Assembly (NCBI GenBank): GCA_016235665.1
Contig: JACRJI010000008.1
Location: forward strand, 1 to 64,000
Length of the DNA stretch: 64,000 bases
Direction: 5' to 3'
Source of the DNA: a candidate division TA06 bacterium
GTDB lineage: Bacteria > Edwardsbacteria > AC1 > EtOH8
Shown: in pieces, positions 9,735 through 14,962 of the stretch
How the letters are laid out: the number at the start of each line of letters is the position of its first letter
How positions within the stretch are numbered: the first letter of the stretch is position 1
The notes under the pieces: model-generated
The model's input: the letters and a program-made list of their open reading frames with translations, nothing else
What the model was told of the DNA's origin: nothing
Database searches by the model: none
Position numbers and translations under genes: made by a program

Positions 9735-10187
9735 CTAAAAGGGAAGGTCGTCATCGCTTTTGCTGAAGGCAGGTTCTTCGCCGTGAACCGGCTCGGGGCT
9801 GGATTCCTGTCCGGAGGCCCCTGTTCCAATGGACGGCCGTCCTTCCCGGTCCAAAAACTCGATCCGGTCGGCCCTGATCTCGATGGTGCTGCGCTTTTGC
9901 CCGTCCTCTGTCTCCCAGTTGCGGTTCTGAAGTTTTCCTTCCACTAACACCGCCCGGCCCTTGGCCAGATACTGTTTGCAAAGTTCGGCCAGTTTTTGCC
10001 AGGCTACCACACCCACATAAGTGGCCTCATCCTTCCACTCGCCAGTGGCGCTTTTATATCGCCGGTTAAGGGCGATGGTAAAATTGGCCACGCTGGTTCC
10101 GTTGGTGGTCTGTCTGAGCTCGGGGTCCTTGGTAAGGCGGCCCACCATGAAAACGCGGTTTAAATCGGCTAAACGCAATTCTGACAT
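9735..10187 (-). CDS. ssb: Single-stranded DNA-binding protein
   Basis: The 150-residue product has an SSB OB fold (NRVFMVGRLTKDPELR, VANFTIALNRRYK, VVAWQKLAELC, GRAVLVEGKLQNRNWE), then a short flexible linker and the canonical C-terminal tip DDDLPF. It therefore represents the standard replication and repair SSB. It follows rpsF as in most bacteria. An AGGAT ribosome site lies upstream. A second, tip-less ssb follows in the same operon. Confidence 0.97.
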   Translation of the reverse strand: MSELRLADLNRVFMVGRLTKDPELRQTTNGTSVANFTIALNRRYKSATGEWKDEATYVGVVAWQKLAELCKQYLAKGRAVLVEGKLQNRNWETEDGQKRSTIEIRADRIEFLDREGRPSIGTGASGQESSPEPVHGEEPAFSKSDDDLPF

Positions 10188-13984: not shown

Positions 13985-14962
13985 TTAGGATCTCTGACTG
14001 CCGGCGTAAAAGCAGCAGGGCCATTGCAATTTCAATTTTAATGCGGCCTGGCGGGCGGAACCGGAATCGGGAAATATGCCGAAGACCGAGGAACCGCTGC
14101 CGGACATCAGGGCGCCCAGGGCGCCGCTTTGGACAAGTTCTTGTTTGATCTGATCTATCTGGGGATGGGAGGGTATCACCGCTTTTTCCAGATCGTTGCA
14201 TAGAGATATTGCCAATTGTCCCGGTTCCGGCCCCAAAGACGGACCATAATTAATCATTTTACTAAATCCGGGCCCTTTTGTCAATGGTATTTTAAGGTTT
14301 TTGTAGGCCCAGGCAGTGGAGACCCCGAACCCGGGATAGACTATCACGAAATGGTAGGCCTGCTTCCAATCCAATGGTTTGATCTTTTCGCCCCTTCCGG
14401 TGACCAGGGCCGTGCCGCCCTGCAGAAAGTATGGGACGTCCGAGCCCAGTCCCAGCGCCATCCGGTGCAATTCAGGACTGCTGATCTCCATTCCCCAGAG
14501 TTTTGGCAAACCCTGCAGGGCGGCTGCGGCATCCGAAGATCCGCCGCCCAGGCCAGCTCCGATGGGGATGTTCTTGGTAAGGGTTATTTTTGCGCCGGGC
14601 AACCTGTCACCTTGCAGAGTGTCACCCTGTGTAGGGCTTATTGCTTGACAAGCCGAAGGATCTTCAAATGATTCTTCGGAGGGTAAACAGGTAGTCTTTC
14701 TCAGAATGACATGGTCCTTTAGATAACCCTGCAGCAGCCGGGCGGCCTTGACCACCAAATTTTTTTCGTTGACGGGCAGGTGGTCGTTATTGCAGGTTAA
14801 AATTATCCGCCCGTTCTCCAATGGTTCGAATTTGAGTTCGTCGTAAAGCGAGACCAGATGGAAAATGGACCAAAGGTCGTGATACCCATCGGGGCGTTTG
14901 CCCAGCACTTCAAGGTGAAGATTGAGCTTGGCATAGGCTTTTAGTTTGATGGATGCTTCCAT
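13985..14962 (-). CDS. ispE: 4-diphosphocytidyl-2-C-methyl-D-erythritol kinase with an in-frame repeat insertion
   Basis: IspE phosphorylates CDP-methylerythritol in the MEP isoprenoid pathway. The product (325 residues from ATG 14962) has the AYAKLNLHLEVLGKRPDGYH start, the GHMP ATP motif PIGAGLGGGSSDAAAAL, and the C-terminal GALGALMSGSGSSVFGIF. Between LQGYLKD and GAKITLTKNIP lies an extra stretch of about 39 residues. It coincides with a palindromic repeat element in the DNA (14597-14713), and normal IspE proteins have only a short loop there. I chose 14962 because a TATAAT sits 6 bases before it; the 14980 ATG would overlap that box. Confidence 0.93.
   Translation of the reverse strand: MEASIKLKAYAKLNLHLEVLGKRPDGYHDLWSIFHLVSLYDELKFEPLENGRIILTCNNDHLPVNEKNLVVKAARLLQGYLKDHVILRKTTCLPSEESFEDPSACQAISPTQGDTLQGDRLPGAKITLTKNIPIGAGLGGGSSDAAAALQGLPKLWGMEISSPELHRMALGLGSDVPYFLQGGTALVTGRGEKIKPLDWKQAYHFVIVYPGFGVSTAWAYKNLKIPLTKGPGFSKMINYGPSLGPEPGQLAISLCNDLEKAVIPSHPQIDQIKQELVQSGALGALMSGSGSSVFGIFPDSGSARQAALKLKLQWPCCFYAGSQRS
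14597..14713. repeat. Palindromic repeat element inserted in frame in ispE (family F)
   Basis: Nested inverted repeats are seen here. The outer arms are TGTCACCCTG (14620-14629) and TCAGAATGACA (14701-14711). The inner arms are CCGAAGGATC (14653-14662) and GATTCTTCGG (14670-14679), with one mismatch. The translated segment is 39 codons without a stop. The motifs resemble dispersed repeats of the TCATTCTGAG...AAGGATC type that I recall from intergenic regions of many environmental genomes. Confidence 0.75.

Follow-up and report, generated by a model that had tools for sequence, protein, structure and literature searches.

A REP-like palindromic repeat dimer lying in frame within the ispE gene of an uncultured bacterial lineage

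Among described repeats, the closest to the element considered here are the CGTC-tagged REPs (families CGTC-1 to CGTC-4), in which the tag CGTC is often TGTC (Di Nocera et al. 2013; PMC3733652). Their stems, of 8–9 bp, start with AT and enclose loops of 4–5 nt, and most are arranged as head-to-head dimers. They are found in several phyla without a dedicated transposase, sometimes within ORFs, and RPE-4 and RPE-6 of Rickettsia (R. conorii) have been classed with them (PMC3733652). The presence of a palindromic repeat in frame within a gene is a known phenomenon (REP/RPE-type; Di Nocera et al. 2013), of which the ispE locus described below is a well-supported further case.

The element in ispE shares with the CGTC-tagged REPs a CGTC/TGTC tag, an A-T pair at the start of the stem, an inverted-dimer arrangement, the lack of a linked transposase and occurrence within a gene, but differs from them in its 5-bp stem, GA/GA mismatch and loop of ∼22 nt. 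Like the Rickettsia palindromic elements (RPE-4/RPE-6 and the longer RPE-1), it stands in frame in a housekeeping gene, to which it adds tens of residues. The Rickettsia-type trait of an in-frame palindromic repeat in a conserved protein gene, missing from homologues, is present, translation being predicted here. The parallel with these elements drawn in an earlier, sequence-only reading of this DNA is apt, given that RPE-4 and RPE-6, as CGTC-tagged REPs, have the same kind of tag (PMC3733652). The sequences are nevertheless different, and intragenic copies, numerous in R. conorii, are exceptional here. The same reading considered a mobile repeat in an essential enzyme unusual; such a case is indeed rare, yet in-frame examples in housekeeping genes had already been described, and no transposase is linked to the present repeat.

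REPINs and BIMEs (RAYT, GTAG REPs) likewise consist of two inverted hairpins that make up a larger palindrome and number tens of copies per genome, but the GTAG tag is absent here and 25 of 26 Y1-transposase loci have no repeats around them. MITEs such as NEMIS, RUP and ERIC resemble the element in size (∼100 bp), 12-bp terminal inverted repeats, dispersal and the absence of coding capacity of their own; unlike in these, each half of the present element is its own hairpin. A literature search with the DNA strings of the repeat returned no relevant match, which does not prove the family undescribed, and an Rfam search of the repeat gave noise matches only.

Repeat family and hairpin anatomy

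A covariance model was built from 28 copies of the repeat, including the ispE copies. Because these were part of the model, a leave-out model was rebuilt from 26 copies with the two ispE copies omitted. The leave-out model finds the ispE copy at E = 2e-13, as the sole match within the window (the whole 64-kb stretch of DNA analysed). Matches of the 28-copy model on both strands numbered 21 in G000, the genome of the window, and 24, 50, 99 and 132 in the other four of five genomes; with both-strand counts halved, these correspond to ∼11 palindromic loci in G000 and 12–66 in the four relatives, nearly all of them intergenic. Further copies of the element, sought in the genome to follow up the sequence-only reading, thus exist. 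Exact matches to the end motif TGTCATYCTGAG number 113 in the ten family genomes, against 0 for its reversed pattern; with ≤1 mismatch allowed, TGTCATTCTGAG is found at 13 places in the genome, many of which border similar intergenic palindromes. The ispE copy agrees with the intergenic copies over its full length. At one locus of a relative (L136; G005 C6:295900-298400), three consecutive copies stand at a spacing of 102 bases.

Two REP-like hairpin units with a TGTC/CGTC tag make up the element, as an inverted dimer of about 95 bp with terminal inverted repeats of 12 bp. Each half-unit comprises a 5-bp stem, a GA/GA tandem mismatch and then a loop of ∼22 nt. In the alignment of 28 copies, pairs within a half covary, with 23 double-change cells, a value reached in 0 of 500 shuffles, and columns 7 and 42 are T-A in 18 sequences and C-G in 10, with no exception. 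Covariation between the two halves did not go beyond that of shuffles in the same alignment; the whole-element palindrome was rejected as a conserved structure on this ground, whereas the half-unit hairpins covary. The first stem pair is A-T in 23 of 28 copies, and the two pairs that follow it show compensating changes; the second pair is T-A in 16 and C-G in 9. Tag columns 1–4, in copies partly picked by motif, read T (21), C (6) or A (1) followed by GTC in 28/28. Between the paired blocks of the first half-unit, GA at columns 10–11 and GA at columns 37–38 are invariant (28/28) and would form a tandem G-A mismatch, possibly of sheared pairs.

Pairing was also assessed across 87 elements. The triplet after GTCA was perfectly complementary to its partner in 131 of 146 half-units, related copies not being independent, as against a shuffled mean of 39 and maximum of 59; here, the anchor was set by position, and either of two one-base offsets was allowed in data and shuffles alike. 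Eight triplets were represented among the complementary half-units (TCC, CCC, TTC, CAC, TCT, CTC, TGC and TAC).

Y1 transposases (PF01797) were detected in 8 of the 10 genomes. Two repeat-bearing genomes gave no Y1 match at threshold, among them G009, which is 97% complete and has ∼50 copies. Only 1 of 26 Y1 loci has a repeat copy within 1.5 kb. RAYT mobilisation was rejected as an explanation, the transposases being present in most genomes yet unlinked to the repeats. In G005, whose ispE is without the insert, a Y1 transposase gene (C3:110628-110969) lies ∼0.4 kb from ispE. At two intergenic sites where G002 has a copy, the orthologous sequence of G000 has none, but is too diverged to display a clean junction or target-site duplication.

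Hairpin units of this kind extend beyond the family. Of 145 genomes, 22 contain the pattern TGTCATTCTGAG-N5-30-GAAGAATC, and these come from many different families; the reversed control gave 0 matches. Short-loop forms such as TGTCATTCTGAGCGAAGCGAAGAATC are frequent in other lineages. Tentatively, units of the form TGTC-ATTCT-GA-G...C-GA-AGAAT with strict GA/GA may represent one ancient superfamily spread across many lineages, undescribed since the mismatch hid the unit from REP searches, of which the ispE copy would be an in-frame insertion; we consider this possible but doubtful. Units of the type TGTCATTCTGAG...CGAAGAATC reach 73 per genome (e.g. G014, G033, G041, G067, G072 and G139), and in other lineages their spacers often look palindromic themselves. 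In G002 (L111, contig C164), a CGTCATTCCCGC...GCGGGAATCC hairpin just downstream of the family element at 9853-9949 resembles a canonical CGTC REP.

The copy within ispE

Table 1. Features of the ispE locus, numbered by position in the window
Feature	Position	Strand	Length	Remarks
ispE, 4-(cytidine 5'-diphospho)-2-C-methyl-D-erythritol kinase	13988..14962	minus	325 aa	TIGR00154
Inverted-dimer palindromic repeat in ispE	14620..14711	minus	92 bp	in frame; encodes VILRKTTCLPSEESFEDPSACQAISPTQGD, residues 85-114; covariance model match
First half-unit, TGTCATTCTGAG...CGAAGAATC	14670..14711	minus		TGTC tag, ATTCT/AGAAT stem, GA/GA tandem mismatch; intact
Spacer separating the half-units, ATTTGAA	14663..14669		7 bp	
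Second half-unit, inverted, TGTCACCCTGTG...CGAAGGATC	14620..14662	plus		slightly decayed
Rest of the variable loop, beyond the repeat, TLQGDRLPG	14597..14619	minus		contains a partial second GGTGACA; not needed by the element

The ispE ORF matched its profile at E = 3e-72, the one single match in the whole genome. The protein retains Lys12, GLGGGSS at 137-143 and Asp175; we take these residues, including the GLGGGSS ATP loop, to have the catalytic roles that they have in GHMP kinases, and IspE with the insert is apparently still functional. Given that an AlphaFold model made with a 4-sequence alignment was unusable (mean pLDDT 44), the loop was placed by aligning the sequence with IspE structures already solved. 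A turn of ∼4 residues in Mtb IspE (3pyd, 80 to 85) is the counterpart of residues 78-120, and the extra stretch joins the helix around NLVVKAARLL, which follows the N-terminal sheet, to the strand before GLGGGSS. By this alignment, the insert is assigned to a surface loop, and the earlier view that the site is a loop in other IspE enzymes holds for the Mtb protein. In an IspE of an unrelated lineage (G047, L037), a tandem RINSATTS-type insert of ∼59 residues occupies a different loop, as another tolerated expansion.

The sequence-only reading had equated a 39-codon extra stretch with a nested inverted repeat at 14597-14713. The repeat is real, but the 28-copy model draws its borders more narrowly (Table 1), and ∼8 of the codons belong to ordinary variable loop. 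Along the coding strand, the element reads TGTCATTCTGAGAAAGAC...CCGAAGAATC-ATTTGAA-GATCCTTCGG...CACAGGGTGACA, and TTCLPSEESFEDPSACQAISPTQGDTLQGDR is one peptide from the ∼30 amino acids that it adds to IspE. Exactly one of the six reading frames of the segment is free of stops, and this is the ispE frame, which bears out the claim that the element is in frame with no stop. Given that 92 bp is no multiple of 3, the frame can have been kept only with one additional base or a minor indel. Folding of the palindrome was only mildly unusual (z of -1.7 for RNA and -0.9 for DNA); the palindrome alone is therefore unconvincing, and single-sequence folding was set aside as proof of an element.

Among ∼90 full-length copies whose surroundings were examined, only that in ispE (G000 and G002) is an insertion in a recognisable conserved gene; other ORFs spanning full copies were judged by eye to be short, spurious or upstream extensions. 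The repeats had a mean of 1.24 open frames out of 6, compared with 1.37 for shuffled sequences. Evolved coding potential of the repeat was rejected for want of any excess of open frames, and chance landing in ispE therefore suffices. A degenerate copy is also present, in frame, in a hypervariable loop of a GT2-type glycosyltransferase of G000 (L169/L011; C16:179729-181129), so named from sequence without a family search; homologues of this protein carry other repeat-like inserts in the same loop.

The ispE loop in related genomes

When IspE from relatives was aligned, the insert was found in full in one congener, as a half in another and not at all in 7 of the 9 other family genomes (G003–G009), in keeping with the insertion proposed earlier. 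The seven have a short connection at this place, the absence in G006 being judged from match coordinates only, and so do the IspE homologues of more distant genomes. In G002, a sister species of the same genus, the full insert has the same place and length, with the frame open and 87% identity over 111 nt; its second half-unit, decayed in G000, is intact there (ACCCTGAG/CGAAGGGT). In G001, the third congener, the loop is 46 nt as against 118 and apparently contains a half-element only, in the opposite orientation. This assignment draws on the alignment of the first half-unit as GTCTTTCTCAGGATGACA, which scored 16.5 (0 of 2000 shuffles) compared with 9 in the same orientation; the half-element is in frame, and the model matched it at E = 2.8e-6 in 401 bases. 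Because the half-unit is palindromic, a right half in unchanged orientation comes close to this in the model (E = 7.3e-6), and both an inversion with deletion and a second insertion are therefore possible at G001.

Substitutions between G000 and G002 at the first, second and third codon positions numbered 4/6/4 in the insert and 39/18/80 in the remaining ispE (Fisher p for insert versus remaining gene, 0.047 for the third and 0.011 for the second position). For the same pair, dN/dS was ∼1.1 in the insert and 0.06 and 0.21 in the ispE flanks. From the codon-position pattern and dN/dS, purifying selection acts on the IspE protein but not visibly on the inserted peptide. Total divergence of the insert was 13% between G000 and G002, as against 0.5–1.0 for ispE synonymous divergence, which is slower than simple neutral drift predicts.

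Origin and fate of the inserted segment

Very probably, IspE owes its extra stretch to a genomic palindromic repeat dimer that was inserted within the genus, in frame, and is neutrally translated in a loop. A REP-like inverted dimer, TGTC/CGTC-tagged, would have entered the ispE loop within the history of the genus, presumably by being copied in, perhaps via a single-stranded hairpin intermediate. It would have landed, or been adjusted, in frame without a stop, leaving ispE intact. The ∼30 inserted residues would then be translated rather than removed and would drift without visible constraint at the protein level, in an enzyme that probably works normally.

An unlikely alternative is that the repeat is kept in ispE for a nucleic-acid function, either as an mRNA hairpin acting in translation or decay or as a protein-binding site in DNA. 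The low divergence of the insert relative to ispE synonymous sites speaks for such a function, as does the conserved hairpin pairing across the repeat family, but the second half-unit has decayed in ispE of G000, G001 has only a half, the fold energy is unremarkable (z of -1.7 for RNA and -0.9 for DNA) and seven family members are without the insert. It is less probable again that the peptide has taken on a role in the protein, such as interaction, regulation or IspE stability. In favour of this, the frame is open in two species with no stop; however, dN/dS is ∼1.1 in the insert compared with 0.06–0.2 in the gene, and the different orientation and length in G001 give a different peptide. Slightly less credible still is removal of the segment after transcription, or its skipping in translation, such that it never appears in the enzyme: events of this sort make use of features like hairpin-forming borders, although nothing direct points to them, and skipping would not need the frame that is open in G000 and G002 and kept by the half-element of G001. 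Finally, a lineage-specific loop expansion resembling the repeat by chance, for which the tandem octad insert of L037 offers a precedent in that IspE loops do expand otherwise, is refuted by the leave-out match at E = 2e-13; the absence from seven relatives and the full-length agreement with intergenic copies also speak against it.

Read as a repeat dimer inserted into a loop, the ispE case extends Rickettsia-style in-frame palindromic insertion to an enzyme of the isoprenoid pathway in bacteria of an uncultured lineage. The occurrence of full, half and no insert within one family provides a natural comparison set for the effects of the peptide on the enzyme. Outside the family, the GA/GA hairpin unit could help to explain the spread of REPs that have no transposase of their own.
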